A DNA stretch of 39,273 nt from Anaerolineaceae bacterium (lineage in GTDB: Bacteria; Chloroflexota; Anaerolineae; Anaerolineales; Anaerolineaceae): assembly GCA_003563055.1 (NCBI GenBank), contig PWSY01000147.1:1-39273 (forward strand), given 5' to 3'. A program made the position numbers and the translations under genes. Within the stretch, counting starts at the first letter, position 1. Each line of letters opens with the position of its first letter. Below, one piece after another: positions 12,825 through 39,273 of this stretch. Under the pieces are notes generated by a model, which saw only the letters and a program-made list of their open reading frames with translations, was not told the DNA's origin and searched no databases.

Positions 12825-14201
12825 CTAAAGGAATTTGTCCAGCAATAAGATGGCCAAACCAAAATAAATAAACAAGCCGGTAATATCCTTGAGGGTGGTG
12901 ATCAAAGGGCCTGCCCCTGCCGCAGGGTCCAGCCCGATCTTTGTCAGAAAGAATGGGATTAAAAAGCCCAGTATTGTGGCAATAATGATCGTCAAGGATA
13001 AGGCAAGACCGACCACCAACCCGATCTCCGGTATTCCCTGCCAAAGTACAGCAAAAGCACCGGTAATCAAGCCCAACACAACGCCCATCCCCACACCAAT
13101 ACCCATCTCTCTGAGGATGTGTTTACCAATATGCCTGACATCAATATGATCTAACACATACCCTCGAATAAAAATGGATGTCGATTGGAGACCGGCATTG
13201 CCGCCCATACCCATGATGACCGGGATAAAGAAAGCCAGAATAACCTCTGATTCAAGAATGTCGGAAAACATCTCGATCACAATCCCGGCCAGAATCCCCC
13301 CAGCCATGGTCACCAGAAGAAAGGGTATCCTGACAGCCCAAACATGCCACAGTGGACCTTGTACCAGCAAATTACTTTTAGCAGCCTGGGTGCTCCCACC
13401 GGAGATAATACCCACCCGTTTGTAAATATCCTCGGTCGTCTCATCTTCCAGGACGGCCATGGCATCATCCGCCGTGATAACCCCCAGGATCCGTTGATGG
13501 TCATCCACCACAGGCAGGGCTAAAAGGTCGTAACGGTTGAGCAAGCGCGCCGCGATTTCCTGATCTTCGTGGGCTGATATCGAGACAACCTGCGATTTTG
13601 CAATAGTGCGAAGCGGCTCACCTGGATGAGCACGCAGGATATCAGCCAGCTTAATCACACCTGTCAATCTTCCATGTTCGTCAACCGCGTAGATATAAGG
13701 GATTTCCTCTTCATAAGTTGGCTGCGATCGAATATCCTCAATCGTATCATGAGCGGTTTTTTCCTCCGGGAAGACATAAAATACGGTCGTCATCAGGCCG
13801 CCAGCAGTATCATCGGGATAGCGCAGCAACGGGCGGATTTTTGACGCATCCGGTAATTGCTCTAAAACGCGTTTCCTAAGATCCTGGTCAATGTCACCCA
13901 ATAAGTTGGCCGCTTCATCCGGGGCCATTTCACTGAGCACCTGTACAAGAACACCAGGCGTAAGGCTTTCAGCCAATTGTGCCGCCTCTTGGTCTTCAAT
14001 TTGCTCAATAATATCGGCTACATCGCTGGCCCTGGCCACAGGCAGCAGTTCCTGTTGCTGTTCTTCAGCCAGTGACTCATATACATCCGATTTGTCGGCT
14101 GGTAATAATGCGCTGAATAGATTACGTACTTCTTTCCATTTGCCCGCCTTGATCAATGTGACAATTTGCTTCATGTTCGACTGGTGTGTTTGCGTAACCA
14201 T
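12825..14201 (-). CDS. mgtE: MgtE-type Mg2+ channel/transporter (paralogue 1)
   Basis: 458 residues, inner-membrane Mg2+ uptake protein. The start at 14201 (MVTQTHQSN) has AAAAGGTGG upstream; a TTG six codons earlier is less likely. Order: helical MgtE_N superhelix (about 1-120, with LNDxxAxNLLGDIDQDLRKRVLEQLPD), two CBS domains (about 125-250, TAGGLMTT, GVITADDAMAVLEDE) and a five-helix membrane domain (about 285-455) with GNAGLQSTSIFIRG and the Asp-containing TTLKDITGLFIYFG near the pore. The cytoplasmic N and CBS domains close the channel when Mg2+ is plentiful. It starts 53 bases after paralogue 2 on the same strand, so the two are likely one transcript and may form a hetero-dimer. Confidence 0.95.
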   Translation of the reverse strand: MVTQTHQSNMKQIVTLIKAGKWKEVRNLFSALLPADKSDVYESLAEEQQQELLPVARASDVADIIEQIEDQEAAQLAESLTPGVLVQVLSEMAPDEAANLLGDIDQDLRKRVLEQLPDASKIRPLLRYPDDTAGGLMTTVFYVFPEEKTAHDTIEDIRSQPTYEEEIPYIYAVDEHGRLTGVIKLADILRAHPGEPLRTIAKSQVVSISAHEDQEIAARLLNRYDLLALPVVDDHQRILGVITADDAMAVLEDETTEDIYKRVGIISGGSTQAAKSNLLVQGPLWHVWAVRIPFLLVTMAGGILAGIVIEMFSDILESEVILAFFIPVIMGMGGNAGLQSTSIFIRGYVLDHIDVRHIGKHILREMGIGVGMGVVLGLITGAFAVLWQGIPEIGLVVGLALSLTIIIATILGFLIPFFLTKIGLDPAAGAGPLITTLKDITGLFIYFGLAILLLDKFL

Positions 14202-14253
14202 TATTGCCACCTTTTCCAATTTTTGCCCGGTTGAAATAAATTAATCATAGGAC

Positions 14254-15630
14254 TCACAGCAGGCCTGAGATAAAGAAGGATGCAAAGCCAAAATAGATCA
14301 ACATACCAGTGATATCCTGGATGGTGGTAATGATAGGTTCAGATGCAACAGCTGGGTCCACACCCAATTTATTAACCACCAAAGGCACCAAAAAACCCAA
14401 TGAGGTGGCCAGGGTAATTGTACTGACCAGCGAAAGCGCCACAACCAGCCCAATATTAATGTCGTTCTGCCAAATAGTAGCAATCGTGCCGCCGATGATA
14501 CCCAGGATCATCCCCAGCCCCAGCCCAATAATTACCTCTCTAAATAAATGTTTGATGAAATCATTGTATGTTATCTGCCCTAATACAAACCCCCGAATAA
14601 AAATACCCACCGATTGGGTGCCACTATTTCCACCCATATCCATCACGATGGGAATAAAAAAGGCCAAGACGACCACTGCTTCAAGTGCTTCTTCATAAAC
14701 ACCTATGACACTACCAGCAAACATGCCGCCAATCATTGTTATCAATAAAAATGGAATCCGCAGCAGCCATGACCGCCAAATCGGGCCACGCACCATCATA
14801 TCACTTTTTACCGTTTGCTGGTCTCTTGGTGATAGAATACCTGCACTCTGGTAAATGTCTTCTGTGGCCTCTTCCTCCAGGGCCTCGATGGCATCGTCAA
14901 TGGTAATCACGCCCAATAAACGCCCTTGCTCGTCCAGCACAGGCAGGGCAAGCAGATCGTAACGATTTAGAAGTTGGGCAGCAATTTCCTGGTCTTGATC
15001 TGCCTCGATTGACACGAACTGCGTTTCTGTGATAGCGCTCAAATATTGTTCAGGGTGGGCACGGATCAGGTCTGCTAAACGGGCAAAGCCTTTCAGCCGG
15101 CCTCCCTCATCTAAAGTAAAAATAAACGGGATCTCCTCATCGCGTATGGGCTGCTCACGGATGAAGTTAAAGATTTCTCCTACCCTCGTCTGCTGGGGGA
15201 ATGCATAGTAATCGGATGTCATCAAACCGCCAGCTGTGTCATCGGGATAGCGCATCAGCGATTTGATCTCTTGTGCATCTGTCATTTGGTCCAGGGACTT
15301 CTGCCGCAATTCCCCATCAATGTCGCCCAAAAGGTCAGCGGCTTCATCCGGTTCCATTTCATTCAGGATGCGGATTAAGACATTCACATCCAGGTTATTG
15401 GCCAGGTTGGCAGCCTCATCATCATCAAGGAATTCAAGGATATTGGCTGCTTCCTGAACGGCAACCACCTTCAAGAGACGTGTTTGATAATCTATGGGCA
15501 GCTCATCAAAAACTTCAGCCTGGTCCGGAGGGAGAAGCGGCTCAACTAACGCTGCGGCCTCTGCACGCTGACCTTCTTCCAGTAAACGGCGAACTTCCGC
15601 AAATAATTGTTCTTTTTGTTCTTCGTTCAT
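14254..15630 (-). CDS. mgtE: MgtE-type Mg2+ channel/transporter (paralogue 2)
   Basis: 458 residues, same architecture as the downstream copy: acidic N-terminal superhelix (EMEPDEAADLLGDIDGELRQ), CBS pair (TAGGLMTSDYYAFP, GVITIDDAIEALEEE) and membrane domain with GNSGTQSVGIFIRG and TTIQDITGMLIYFG. The two proteins share most motifs but diverge strongly elsewhere, so the duplication is old. GAGGAGTGAGAG precedes the ATG. The 220-base leader from the promoter at 15858-15886 holds an early terminator and a second hairpin, so Mg2+- or repressor-linked control is possible. Confidence 0.95.
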   Translation of the reverse strand: MNEEQKEQLFAEVRRLLEEGQRAEAAALVEPLLPPDQAEVFDELPIDYQTRLLKVVAVQEAANILEFLDDDEAANLANNLDVNVLIRILNEMEPDEAADLLGDIDGELRQKSLDQMTDAQEIKSLMRYPDDTAGGLMTSDYYAFPQQTRVGEIFNFIREQPIRDEEIPFIFTLDEGGRLKGFARLADLIRAHPEQYLSAITETQFVSIEADQDQEIAAQLLNRYDLLALPVLDEQGRLLGVITIDDAIEALEEEATEDIYQSAGILSPRDQQTVKSDMMVRGPIWRSWLLRIPFLLITMIGGMFAGSVIGVYEEALEAVVVLAFFIPIVMDMGGNSGTQSVGIFIRGFVLGQITYNDFIKHLFREVIIGLGLGMILGIIGGTIATIWQNDINIGLVVALSLVSTITLATSLGFLVPLVVNKLGVDPAVASEPIITTIQDITGMLIYFGFASFFISGLL

Positions 15631-33064: not shown

Positions 33065-33477
33065 TAATACTCCTAAAAAACCAACACCACTAAAAAACGA
33101 CCAGTAAAAAATTTACTCGTTCTCATAGACAAGGTTTCTCTAACCAAACATTATATCCTGAGATCACCAAACCCATATGGAAGGATCAGCTTTCTTGGAT
33201 TTAACAACACATGCTGGTTATCACCTACTGCCTTCACAGATCCATTAGAATAATATCCTACCTATAAAATATCCAGAGGTTCTTTTTCCTATTTTAAAAA
33301 GACTACCCATTAATACTATTAGCGTAACTACTCAGGCAGTCCTACTGCTGAAGGTTGGAGTTTTATTCACAGACGCCAAAATGATTTTACCCGTAATCCA
33401 TCCAAACCCATCCTCTGGAATCAAACTTGCCCCATTTAGGCTATCAGCATATCCATCAGAGAAGCATGGATTCATTT
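33065..33477. other. Divergent intergenic region with repeat fragment
   Basis: No gene is visible. It contains AGTAAAAAATTTACT (hairpin-like, near 33101) and a left-flank copy of the ACTCAGGCAG repeat at 33324-33354. Remaining bases are AT-rich and may hold promoters for both flanking genes. Confidence 0.5.
33324..33354 (+). repeat. Fragment of the ACTCAGGCAG repeat family
   Basis: GTAACTACTCAGGCAGTCCT at its start, then ACTGCTGAAGG, close to the left flank of the 7312 element. The hairpin part is absent; TTGGAGTTTT follows. Confidence 0.7.
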
Positions 33478-34767
33478 ATGAAAATATATCCCCTCAATAA
33501 AAATAACGGTAGAATACTTCAGATGCGAAGAATCAATCCGTGTATACCTTTCTTGTTTTTTATGCTTGTTTTCCTCTCGGCCTGTCACCCCGTGGTGACA
33601 GCGCCCATACCGTATAGAGGCTTTCCTACGCTCCAAAGTCAGAATGCAGAGTCAACCGCCACACCACCACCAACGATGGTGATACCCACCCACACCCCCA
33701 CCAGCCCTCAGCCAACACCAACCATACAGCCCATAGAACTCTCAGCGACAGTTTGGGAAGCGCTACCCCAGACTCCTATCTTGATGTATCATCGCTTCAA
33801 TCCTGCACAAAATGCGTCATCTTCCGCTTATATGACGACTCTGGCTGACTTTGACAAACAATTGCATGCACTCTATCATGCAGGTTACTCACTCGTTTCA
33901 TTGAACGACTGGCTTCGGGGTGAGATTCATGTTCCAGAAGGGCGTAAACCCCTGATTATCACAATCGATGATCTTTTTTATGCGGATCAGATCTCCCTCG
34001 ATGAATCTGGAGAACCGGCCGCGTATTCTGGTTTAGGGCACCTGTGGCATTTTTATCAAGATCACCCTGAATTTAGCTTCAAAGTAGCCCTATTCTATAA
34101 TATGGGAGACAAGGGATATTTAAATCATTACACCAATGGTTCTTTCTCTGCCCAGCCAGGATGGCGCGAGGATCGCGCCAGGGCAATTGCCTGGGGGATC
34201 GAGAACGGTGCTATCCCGCTCAACCATTTCTACGAACACCCATTCCTCGACAGCTTATCCCCTCAGGAAATCCACTGGCAAATGGAGGAAAATGACCGCG
34301 CCCTGCGTGAAACCCTCGCTCTGATAGGAAAAGAGAGTTTAGCCAAAGACCTGCCGAATATTCTTGCGCTGCCCTATGTTATCTGGCCAAAAACGCCCGC
34401 AGGCAGGCAAATTCTGTATGATTACACATCACCTGATGGGGCGCCGGTTGCGGCGATAATGGAAGGCGGGTATCATCCCCAGCTTTTTCCAGCCCCATTC
34501 TCACCAGACTTCGACCCCTGGCACGTTCCTCGCGCCAATGCCTCGCCCTATGCCATACAAGCGATCGCAGACTTTGCGGAAAGTCTCCCGTCACCCACAA
34601 CTTGTGATTTAGGAAAATTTCCCGATGAAACCCACATGAATGCCGAGCCTATCCTAAAATCTATCCTCAATATCGTCAATGCAGGTCACTGCCCCTATGG
34701 CTATTATATCGTTGGGCAACTGGCCTTCCATGTGCATGAAAATGGCATCATCCAGCTTTCACCATAA
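33478..34767 (+). CDS. Lipoprotein with polysaccharide deacetylase-like domain
   Basis: 429 residues if started at ATG 33478 (GGATT before it); a start at 33523 (MRRINPCIPFLFF) would give a shorter, cleaner lipoprotein signal. The signal ends LVFLSAC, then a Thr/Pro-rich linker to about residue 85. The domain has PILMYHRF, LADFDKQLHALYHAGYSLVSL, LIITIDDLFYADQ (metal Asp region) and NHFYEHPF (second His motif), the NodB/CE4 pattern. It may de-N-acetylate cell-wall or exopolysaccharide at the outer face. A glycan substrate is inferred. Confidence 0.8.
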   Translation: MKIYPLNKNNGRILQMRRINPCIPFLFFMLVFLSACHPVVTAPIPYRGFPTLQSQNAESTATPPPTMVIPTHTPTSPQPTPTIQPIELSATVWEALPQTPILMYHRFNPAQNASSSAYMTTLADFDKQLHALYHAGYSLVSLNDWLRGEIHVPEGRKPLIITIDDLFYADQISLDESGEPAAYSGLGHLWHFYQDHPEFSFKVALFYNMGDKGYLNHYTNGSFSAQPGWREDRARAIAWGIENGAIPLNHFYEHPFLDSLSPQEIHWQMEENDRALRETLALIGKESLAKDLPNILALPYVIWPKTPAGRQILYDYTSPDGAPVAAIMEGGYHPQLFPAPFSPDFDPWHVPRANASPYAIQAIADFAESLPSPTTCDLGKFPDETHMNAEPILKSILNIVNAGHCPYGYYIVGQLAFHVHENGIIQLSP

Positions 34768-34816: not shown

Positions 34817-35611
34817 ATGTTTGTTTACCTCAGTAAATTATTACCATTGTTAATTTACCCATTGGGCTTATCGATCCTATTACTGATCCTGGCACTGGTG
34901 TTGTCAAAATACCCCAAATGGCGCAAAGGAATGCTTATCACAGCGCTGGTTATCTTGTGGTTAGGATCTAACCGCTGGGTAAGCTTCTCATTGGCCCGCT
35001 CTCTCGAGTGGCAAAACCTCCCACCTGACCCAATGCCAAACACCGAGGTCATTGTACTGTTGGGTGGTGGTACCGAGCCAGGTGACGCGCCCAGGCCAAT
35101 GACAGAAGTGAATAGTGCAGGCGACCGAGTCTTCTATGCTGCAAAGCTGTACCAAGCAGGCGCGGCGCCCATCATCCTGGCCAGCGGCGGTAATTTAGAT
35201 TTCAGCGAAGAGCGGGGGTCAACCCCGGCCGAAGAGATGACCGAGCTGCTGTTATTGACAGGCGTCCCAGAATCCGCCATCTGGCAGCAGAGCAACTCCC
35301 AAAACACCTATGAGGATGCGCTTTATTCTGCGACAATGCTCAGGGAAGGGGACATCACTGAAATCATCCTGGTCACCTCGGCCATGCACATGCCCAGGTC
35401 AAAGGCACTTTTTGAGAAGCAAGGCATACACGTCACCCCTGCGCCCGTGGATTTCACCATCACTGAGCGCAACTGGGAAAGCACCTTTCGACCAGGATTG
35501 GATGAGTTTTTAATTTTTATAATGCCCAATTCCAGTTCGCTGGGCCTGACAACCAATGTCCTCAAGGAGTATATCGGCTACCTGATCTATGGTTTGCGCG
35601 GTTGGCTCTGA
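34817..35611 (+). CDS. YdcF/ElyC-like (DUF218) membrane protein
   Basis: 264 residues. Two N-terminal membrane helices (about 5-28 and 36-55) are followed by the DUF218 domain: EVIVLLGGGTEPG, RVFYAAKLYQAGAAPIILASGG, ESAIWQQSNSQNTYEDALYSA and LVTSAMHMPRSKALFEKQG. In E. coli ElyC/SanA relatives act in envelope integrity. It follows the deacetylase-like gene by about 50 bases, so the two may be cotranscribed. AAAAGGA precedes the ATG. GGTTGG...CCAACC at the stop could form a small hairpin. Confidence 0.88.
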   Translation: MFVYLSKLLPLLIYPLGLSILLLILALVLSKYPKWRKGMLITALVILWLGSNRWVSFSLARSLEWQNLPPDPMPNTEVIVLLGGGTEPGDAPRPMTEVNSAGDRVFYAAKLYQAGAAPIILASGGNLDFSEERGSTPAEEMTELLLLTGVPESAIWQQSNSQNTYEDALYSATMLREGDITEIILVTSAMHMPRSKALFEKQGIHVTPAPVDFTITERNWESTFRPGLDEFLIFIMPNSSSLGLTTNVLKEYIGYLIYGLRGWL

Positions 35612-36858: not shown

Positions 36859-38181
36859 TTAAGGAAAGAGCACCTTCAAAGCATCGGGGGCATATGTCTC
36901 AACAACCTCTGCCGAAATGCCATTTAGGCCACATATCTCGGCATACAGATCAGCACTGGGTCGGCGGATGCGCGCCTGCGTTTCCACATCCAAGCCCCAT
37001 AACCCAAAACGCTGAGTCCAGCCGCGCTCCCACTCAAAGTTATCAACCAGGGACCAGTGAAAATAACCCTTAACCAGGTAATTATCGTTGATAATTTGCC
37101 ACAAGGCATACAAATGCTCCAGGAGATACTGTGGCCGCAGGGTATCCTCAGAATCCTCGACCCCATTTTCTGTGATGATCATCGGAAGCCCAAATTGACT
37201 CCCCCACTTCACACATTCGATCATACCTTCAGGCAAATTGGCGATAAAACCAGACTCACTCAGCGACGCCCCATCCGGGTACGAACGATGACCGAAGATC
37301 TTTCCCGGCGCGAATAGATCGAACCGGACCCGATCGCTGGAATAATAATTTAAGCCCACAAAATCTTGCGTCCCAACAGCGTCACTGATGCGGTGTTTTT
37401 TACAAATCGCGTTGAACACACCGTCTTTTAGCGTCCTGGGGAACAAATCATTGAACAATGTATTGTAAACACCGGCCGTCCAGCGATCAACAGGCAACCA
37501 GGTGGCGGGTTTAAATCCCCGGTAATGGAGCGCCACACCCACGCGGGCTTCGGGTTGGATCTCATGGATCACATGATAAGCCCTGGCATGGGCCCGGATC
37601 AGATGGTCCATAACCCTCAGTGCCGCTTTGAGGCTCCTCTTACCGGGGGGAAAGACCCCTTCAAGATACGCACTGTACATATAGACATTAGGTTCGTTTA
37701 TCGTTATCCACAGATCACAGAAAGGTTCTAAAGCCTCAACGGATTTTTTTACAAAGCGAGCAAAGAGATCAACCACCGCCTCATTTTCCCATCCCCCCAT
37801 TTCAGCCACCCAAAGCGGTTCGCTGAAGTGATGCAGCGTCACCATGGGGGCCATATTTCGCTCTCTTAACCGTTTCAACATTTCTCGATAGCGATCCAAT
37901 GCGCCTTCATCCCAACGATCAGGTGTAGGTTGAATCCGGCTCCAGGCAATGGACAGCCTGTGGGCATTCTGATTGGCCTCATAAGCCCGGTCAAAATCTT
38001 CCCGCCAACGGCCTCCCCACCAATCACAGGCAAGCCCAGACTTATCGCCATTTAAAATCCGACCCTCTTCCTGCTCCCAGGCATACCAGGTGTTATTCTG
38101 ATTGCGCCCCTCTACCTGGTGAGCTGCTGTGGCCGTCCCCCATAGAAATCCCTCTGTAAAATAATAAATTCCTTTTGGCAT
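36859..38181 (-). CDS. Beta-glucosidase, glycoside hydrolase family 1
   Basis: 440 residues. TIM-barrel retaining glycosidase. The N-terminus has FLWGTATAAHQVEG; the acid/base Glu163 is in WITINEPN and the nucleophile Glu338 in MIITENG. WSLVDNFEWERGWTQRFGL and the aglycone-site residues are in place. Length agrees with the family. AGGAG lies 9 bases before the ATG. It has no sugar transporter next to it in the window. The upstream gene on the same strand is the truncated surface-type protein. Confidence 0.96.
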   Translation of the reverse strand: MPKGIYYFTEGFLWGTATAAHQVEGRNQNNTWYAWEQEEGRILNGDKSGLACDWWGGRWREDFDRAYEANQNAHRLSIAWSRIQPTPDRWDEGALDRYREMLKRLRERNMAPMVTLHHFSEPLWVAEMGGWENEAVVDLFARFVKKSVEALEPFCDLWITINEPNVYMYSAYLEGVFPPGKRSLKAALRVMDHLIRAHARAYHVIHEIQPEARVGVALHYRGFKPATWLPVDRWTAGVYNTLFNDLFPRTLKDGVFNAICKKHRISDAVGTQDFVGLNYYSSDRVRFDLFAPGKIFGHRSYPDGASLSESGFIANLPEGMIECVKWGSQFGLPMIITENGVEDSEDTLRPQYLLEHLYALWQIINDNYLVKGYFHWSLVDNFEWERGWTQRFGLWGLDVETQARIRRPSADLYAEICGLNGISAEVVETYAPDALKVLFP

Positions 38182-38319: not shown

Positions 38320-39228
38320 TTAAGCGGTAAAGGGCTCTGAATAGGGTTTTTGGGTTGTTTTTACGATCACCTTTTCGGTGATAAGGTTATACTCCGCTGC
38401 CAGGACAAAAGAGGGTGGGAAAAAGTGTTTGTCCCATGGCTTTGAAAGTTGGCCCTGGCCGGCGTAAGCGGCCCAAGTGCCGATGGGCGGCCGGTAGGAT
38501 GGCAGCCTGACCCCGTTATGGCCATAGAAGTTACCAAACCGATCCATATAGGATTCAATGTTATTAGGATCTGGCTGTTCGTAGAAAAATAAATTTAGAT
38601 CTGGTGTTACACGGGCCAAAATACGGCGCTTGTTTACGGTGCCCATATCCATAAGGTGTTTAACTTCAGACAAATGGGTATTGAACTCATTGCGAAATGG
38701 GCACGCCTCAACACCTGACGTAAAGGGTTCGACTTTGTTAAAGAACTGGTCGTAATCTGCGATGATGTCTGTAAGCTGCTGGCCTGTGTCTTGTGCTGCG
38801 ATGGCACGAAAATAAAGATTGGGCCTAACACCTGGAGAAGTTACATTAGGAATATCAGTCCAGGCAGCGCCAACATAGAGCCTGGCCCTAAAATGATGGG
38901 TTGTATCTTCCGCGGCTTCATCTAACTTAATATCATAATGATTAGAAGCGTTTGAAGTGGCGGGATCGAATGAAAGCCAGGCCCTGCCTAATGGAACCGT
39001 AACAGGGGGATTAAACTCATAGGCAAACCAAGTAAAGCGAGTAGAAGAGTAGCTTGAACCTGAAATTGTATTAGAATAGCCAACAATTGACCCTGGCGTG
39101 TTGGTGTTTATACCCTGTTGATGAAGCCTAACCTGGGTATTTGAAGTGGGGGCGCCCTGCTTGCGGCCTTTTAAATAAACAAACTTATAATTAATAGCTG
39201 AGAGGTTAATCCCCCTGTTACGGTTCCA
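38320..39228 (-). CDS. C-terminal part of an uncharacterised surface or virion-like protein
   Basis: The minus frame is open for 302 codons up to an in-frame TAA at 39229-39231, with no convincing start codon. The first about 115 residues (INYKFVYLKGRK, TQVRLHQQG, FNPPVTVPLGRAWLSFDPATSN) resemble beta-sandwich modules found in phage structural and choice-of-anchor-type surface proteins. A second region has NKRRILARVTPDLNLFFYEQPD, IGTWAAYAG and ends TTQKPYSEPFTA. I do not recognise a named family. The upstream part is broken at 39202 where an inverted copy of 38947-39018 begins, so the real N-terminus is missing or lies elsewhere. No tail, portal or terminase genes were seen. Confidence 0.55.
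   Translation of the reverse strand, partial: WNRNRGINLSAINYKFVYLKGRKQGAPTSNTQVRLHQQGINTNTPGSIVGYSNTISGSSYSSTRFTWFAYEFNPPVTVPLGRAWLSFDPATSNASNHYDIKLDEAAEDTTHHFRARLYVGAAWTDIPNVTSPGVRPNLYFRAIAAQDTGQQLTDIIADYDQFFNKVEPFTSGVEACPFRNEFNTHLSEVKHLMDMGTVNKRRILARVTPDLNLFFYEQPDPNNIESYMDRFGNFYGHNGVRLPSYRPPIGTWAAYAGQGQLSKPWDKHFFPPSFVLAAEYNLITEKVIVKTTQKPYSEPFTA
38947..39018 (-). repeat. 72-bp inverted repeat, copy inside the frame
   Basis: Matches 39202-39273 in reverse complement at 69 of 72 positions by eye. On the minus strand it encodes EFNPPVTVPLGRAWLSFDP followed by ATSNA. Confidence 0.85.
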
Positions 39229-39273
39229 TTAGGCAGGGCCTGGCTTTCATTCGATCCCGCCCTTTCAAACGCT
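39202..39273 (+). repeat. 72-bp inverted repeat, copy at the window edge
   Basis: Reverse complement of 38947-39018 with three differences. Read on the plus strand it encodes the same motif with Val for Phe and Leu for Thr (EVNPPVTVPLGRAWLSFDP then ALSNA). It reaches the last base, so it may be longer. The plus-strand frame has a TGA right before it, so this copy is not part of a complete gene here. Confidence 0.85.

Follow-up and report, generated by a model that had tools for sequence, protein, structure and literature searches.

The inverted copy of coding sequence at the end of the window (the whole stretch of Anaerolineaceae DNA analysed here, 39273 bases) is most probably a fold-back chimera, an artefact of sequencing or assembly where a metagenome contig is cut off. 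We assign this reading, which concerns the arm at 39202-39273, a probability of about 0.84. Misassembly was one of the options offered by the original prediction, and it is the one favoured by the evidence, as the arm lies at the contig end and the gene that it interrupts is whole in most relatives.

The inverted repeat at the contig end

The repeat consists of two arms of 72 nt each, which are complementary at 69 of 72 positions and are separated by 183 nt, just as had been described from the sequence before. Arm 1 (38947-39018, minus strand; EFNPPVTVPLGRAWLSFDPATSNA) is the in-frame copy and aligns with the corresponding stretch in relatives. The loop (39019-39201, minus strand) is in the coding orientation seen in relatives, while arm 2 (39202-39273, plus strand) is the inverted copy. 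The window is the entire contig C188, and arm 2 therefore closes the contig as its last 72 bases. The core of the repeat (39206-39261) is an exact match of 56 bases, for which the chance of occurrence as an inverted match in 39 kb is approximately 3e-25 by a simple equal-base estimate; thus, a chance origin of the repeat was excluded. Upstream of the two arms only 5/16 bases match, and the similarity does not continue there.

The arms differ, in the sense of the gene, at 39205 (T/G), 39262 (A/C) and 39263 (C/T), which are 69, 12 and 11 bases from the contig end, respectively. These three bases fall into two codons, TTT>GTT and ACT>CTT, and bring about the Phe to Val and Thr to Leu changes reported in the original prediction; no synonymous change was found. 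The translation of arm 2 shares 22 of 24 residues (91.7%) with that of arm 1. Arm 2 amounts to 24 codons, beyond which the reading frame goes no further, and it is directly preceded by an in-frame TGA stop at 39199-39201.

The search for further copies suggested in the original prediction found no third copy of the repeat segment in the source assembly (2.47 Mb, 256 contigs, 75.5% complete; contigs of at least 3 kb). Comparable arms were also sought at the other contig tips, namely at 60 starts and 29 ends of other contigs and at the start of the window itself; 31 tips that read N (20 starts and 11 ends, contigs under 3 kb) were left out. None of these 90 tips carried one, the next best inverted-repeat score being 22 versus 63 in the window. 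The inverted join is no assembly-wide fault and looks like a single event. A general MDA fault, considered as a candidate cause, was weakened by the same count (0/90 usable tips). The N-terminal half of the gene gave no match elsewhere in the own genome (contigs of at least 3 kb; the query had no positive control).

The truncated gene and its homologues

The interrupted gene is represented in the window by the C-terminal 293 codons of a phage-tail-like gene (38320-39201, minus strand), identified as an open frame with homologues, whose N-terminal side is cut by the contig end. The minus-strand frame is open from 39228 to 38320 (302 codons), and the 293 codons up to the junction are free of stops. 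Homologues were detected in 14 of the 15 genus relatives searched (none in G001, a fragment in G013), with exactly one clear homologue in 13 of the 15 and stop-to-stop frames of 509–575 aa in 12. Beyond the genus, homologues were found in 4/21 further genomes of the family and in 0/24 from the rest of the order. The first residue of the window protein aligns with position 226 of the G010 protein (507 aa), and the homology breaks off no more than a few residues short of 39201. The full-length relatives continue upstream of this point with a GPG-type stretch and about 225 more residues, which are missing from the window. This alignment indicates that arm 1 and the loop have the same orientation as in relatives, while arm 2 stands where the gene should continue.

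Searches with the window protein gave no matches in genome_contigs, viral_contigs, the phage collection or PHROGs, and the single match in Pfam was below the cut-off. The structure model of the G010 homologue was confident (pLDDT 88). Its fold matches were weak and mixed: they included proteins of phage tails or baseplates and carbohydrate-binding domains, alongside many unrelated proteins rich in beta structure, and TM-scores normalised by query length did not exceed 0.24; a match to DUF4082 in the middle of the protein remained below the Pfam cut-off. From this predicted model, a tail hub carrying an inserted beta-sandwich can be suggested at most. The tail identity of the gene is based on its position together with the weak fold match. 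As to the kind of gene, the earlier description as virion-like was correct, mainly on the evidence of the gene's neighbours in relatives.

Inverted copies at this gene were not found in any of the 20 relatives' loci scanned: the best inverted-repeat score was 21 among five long loci, and a further set of 15 loci, several of them from the same genomes, reached 19 at most, compared with 63 in the window. Not all loci of the genus are intact. G013 (L017) keeps only the last ~104 residues of the tail gene, with a stop counted inside the match. In G004 the tail frame is 307 aa long, being truncated near the position equivalent to residue 201 of the G010 protein and fused directly to the terminase gene (L013:5-2283), and in G014 (L132) terminase, lysin and portal genes are present while the capsid gene is absent. 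At the Anaerolinea thermolimosa locus (L163:14460-16755), two overlapping frames each show a match to the tail gene, which points to a frameshift or a gene duplication.

Origin of the inverted arm

A fold-back of this kind could have formed if, at the amplification, library-making or assembly step, a strand ending near 39201 had paired with the opposite strand close by through a short near-match (GAG-TTAAT...). Extension or joining would then have added 72 bases, copied in reverse from the stretch 39018-38947, and the contig would end at 39273 for want of a correct overlap to carry it on. The mismatch at 39205, which is close to the join, would represent a mispriming mismatch, while those at 39262-39263 may be read-tail errors or may derive from a sister-strain template, i.e., from a co-occurring strain. 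A sister copy was sought in viral_contigs with two exact 22-base patterns, neither of which was found. The near-match at the join, GAG-TTAAT, is a candidate for junction microhomology, read from the contig sequence.

Such products are known from the literature. In PMC1855051, over 85% of MDA chimeras are described as inverted with an intervening deletion, 337/406 inversions linked sites less than 10 kb from each other, and 2–21 complementary bases were present at more than 70% of the chimera junctions. Chimeric reads at near-perfect inverted repeats also arise in sonicated libraries, according to PMC10908179.

Several observations speak against a chimera. No comparable arm was found at the 90 other tips, and neither the N-terminal half of the gene nor a capsid gene was found elsewhere in the own genome. 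Between the two neighbouring mismatches, 11-12 bases from the end, and the end itself lie 10 exact bases, a pattern which simple copying does not explain. The tail gene is cut in G004, too, and real deletions may therefore occur near this place in the genus. The cut gene of G004 lowered our estimate for the chimera from 0.88 to the value given above and slightly raised that for a real inverted duplication, in which a local template switch or rearrangement broke the tail gene, now decaying in this lineage. We consider such an event unlikely, although it deserves some weight. The exclusively non-synonymous differences between the arms fit a non-coding relic, and the phage-derived block is damaged in three other members of the genus (G004, G013 and G014). 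Against such an event stand the 293 stop-free codons up to the junction, the coincidence of the arm with the very end of the contig and the lack of an inverted copy at any relative's locus scanned; moreover, the terminase-tail join of G004 may itself be an assembly fault.

The two biological readings of the original prediction fared worse. A shufflon-like invertible element switching part of the tail protein would suit the location of the arms on either side of a 183-base loop (61 codons) that encodes a poorly conserved middle portion of a tail-type protein, but inversion of this loop brings six stops into frame. Neither further copies of the segment in the own genome nor such repeats at the relatives' loci scanned were found. 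The recombinase search proposed earlier yielded no match to the resolvase family (PF00239) in the own genome, the control being positive in 10/14 known genomes, and only two to the tyrosine recombinases (PF00589), both on other contigs (C231 and C60) of this incomplete genome. Switching of this kind is thus given hardly any credence. The same applies to two inverted paralogous genes adjoining each other. Their one asset is the 22/24 residues retained in arm 2, but the arm comprises just 24 codons after an in-frame stop and all of its differences change amino acids. A second copy of the tail protein was not found in the five long loci either, where only chance-level matches appeared (E 0.12 or worse; no match in one), and the single clear homologue in most relatives of the genus tells against paralogy as well. 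We regard inverted paralogues as extremely improbable.

The phage-derived block and its host flank in relatives

In relatives, the tail gene is the last gene of a phage-derived block of approximately 10.5 kb, which occupies one place in the genus, beside a family 1 glycosyl hydrolase (GH1) gene. The block (L127:967-11398; equivalents in L125, L126, L128, L129 and L153-L158) includes terminase, portal and capsid/protease fusion genes, in some cases a GH25 lysin, as well as small genes, a ~445 aa gene and the tail gene. In G010, the order upstream of the tail gene is terminase-like gene (PHROG E 1.9e-5; Pfam below the cut-off), GH25 endolysin (Pfam E 5.2e-18), portal (PHROG E 5e-28; Pfam below the cut-off) and capsid/protease (Pfam E 1.7e-25), followed by the small genes and the ~445 aa gene. 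The lysin was recognised in only some of the relatives, and no tape-measure gene was recognised in the block.

The window preserves the host side of this arrangement. Its GH1 gene (36859-38181, minus strand; PF00232, E 1.6e-79) is 73% identical to the G010 copy and adjoins the truncated tail gene, as GH1 adjoins the tail gene or its remnant in 12/12 genus genomes examined whose locus reaches it (nine with loci reaching both, plus G004, G011 and G013). At the other-genus loci examined, GH1 is not the neighbour. Farther along, a DUF218 protein gene (34817-35611, plus strand) and a second gene (33427-34767, plus strand) match host genes f4 and f5, respectively, of the relatives' syntenic flank. 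Elsewhere in the window, 12825-15630 (minus strand) holds two adjoining MgtE-type magnesium transporter genes.

The capsid profile matched 27/61 genomes searched, comprising 10/16 of the genus (the own genome, in which the capsid gene was not found, is included in this count), 15/21 further members of the family and 2/24 from the rest of the order. The misassigned G014 sequence was left out of the capsid alignment. Capsid relatives were present at 35 loci, the named ones of which are labelled Anaerolineaceae, Anaerolineae or Chloroflexi, including Anaerolinea, Bellilinea, Leptolinea, Pelolinea and Flexilinea; the cultured Anaerolinea thermolimosa, Bellilinea caldifistulae and Flexilinea flocculi are among those with a capsid match. 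The phage collection added seven distant matches in this survey. Relatives of the capsid are also encoded by at least 152 contigs labelled as viral (IMG/VR), of which 80 (L190-L269) were kept, the longest being 26.7 kb. Within flanks of at most 3 kb, a portal gene was found in 65 of the 80 kept contigs and a glycosyl hydrolase in none. Some of the IMG/VR contigs with capsid relatives may be host-borne blocks filed as viruses, all of the 80 kept being under 27 kb.

The divergence of the block was compared with that of three neighbouring host genes. Pairwise protein distances correlated with those of the host genes at r 0.78–0.91 for the terminase, 0.48–0.82 for the portal and 0.65–0.86 for the capsid (six genomes; 2–45 of 720 permutations as high), and at r 0.77–0.94 for the tail gene (eight or nine genomes; 0 of 2000 permutations as high). 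The median protein identity was 63–66% for terminase, portal and capsid, 42% for the tail gene and 69–72% for the host genes. The corresponding medians of uncorrected pN/pS, with synonymous sites near saturation, were 0.31–0.38, 0.57 and 0.23–0.29. Among the matches listed, no integrase lay on the capsid contig in 8 of the 10 relatives of the genus that have a capsid match, and the nearest ones listed were ~88 kb (G012) and ~141 kb (G009) from the capsid gene; one match each of G003, G008 and G009 falls outside this listing. Within the genus, the block diverges in step with its neighbouring genes, which fits a vertically kept, phage-derived block.

Judged from its genes, the block may be hypothesised to resemble a domesticated prophage or a gene transfer agent. 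It is possible, if still tentative, that the truncated gene closes a vertically inherited, phage-derived and gene-transfer-agent-like particle block of Anaerolineaceae, that the contig breaks in the variable middle of this gene, and that the fold-back is a scar only. The damage in a third member of the genus (G004) made us lower this assessment somewhat. The missing tape measure, the different neighbour outside the genus and the damaged blocks of G004, G013 and G014 all speak against a strict gene transfer agent. No description of a gene-transfer-agent element in Anaerolineaceae or Chloroflexota was found in the titles and the beginnings of abstracts searched (without preprints and most subscription journals), and PMC8597652 mentions gene transfer agents in general terms. 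Should the block make particles, it would constitute a system akin to gene transfer agents, of which the literature covered by this search gave no description from this phylum. This conserved block, at the stage of a hypothesis, matters more than the fold-back itself and is the better lead.

Comparison with known systems

The end of the window resembles the published fold-back chimeras of amplification and library making (PMC1855051, PMC10908179) in its inverted join, in the short distance between the joined points and the intervening bases dropped, in the possible near-match at the join and in the short arm at the end of the molecule. It differs from the published cases in that it is known from an assembled contig alone, has no counterpart at the 90 other tips and carries three mismatches. 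An inverted copy at a contig end should not be taken for a DNA switch when the gene concerned is intact in most relatives.

Shufflons and phage tail-fibre inversion systems of the Rci or Gin/Cin type have inverted repeats in a tail-type gene, and the window shares this feature. Unlike in those systems, no recombinase was found nearby on the contig, the frame does not stay open once the loop is inverted, no further copies were found in the own genome and the arrangement is not conserved at the relatives' loci scanned.

The gene transfer agents CcGTA and RcGTA have phage-type head, packaging and tail genes on the chromosome. The block of the relatives departs from them in being known here from its genes alone, in lacking a recognised tape-measure gene, in being damaged in three genus members and in belonging to another phylum. 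Like CcGTA and RcGTA, however, it combines terminase, portal, capsid/protease and tail-type genes, with a lysin in some relatives, and it occupies one chromosomal place in the genus; among the integrase matches listed, none lies near the block.
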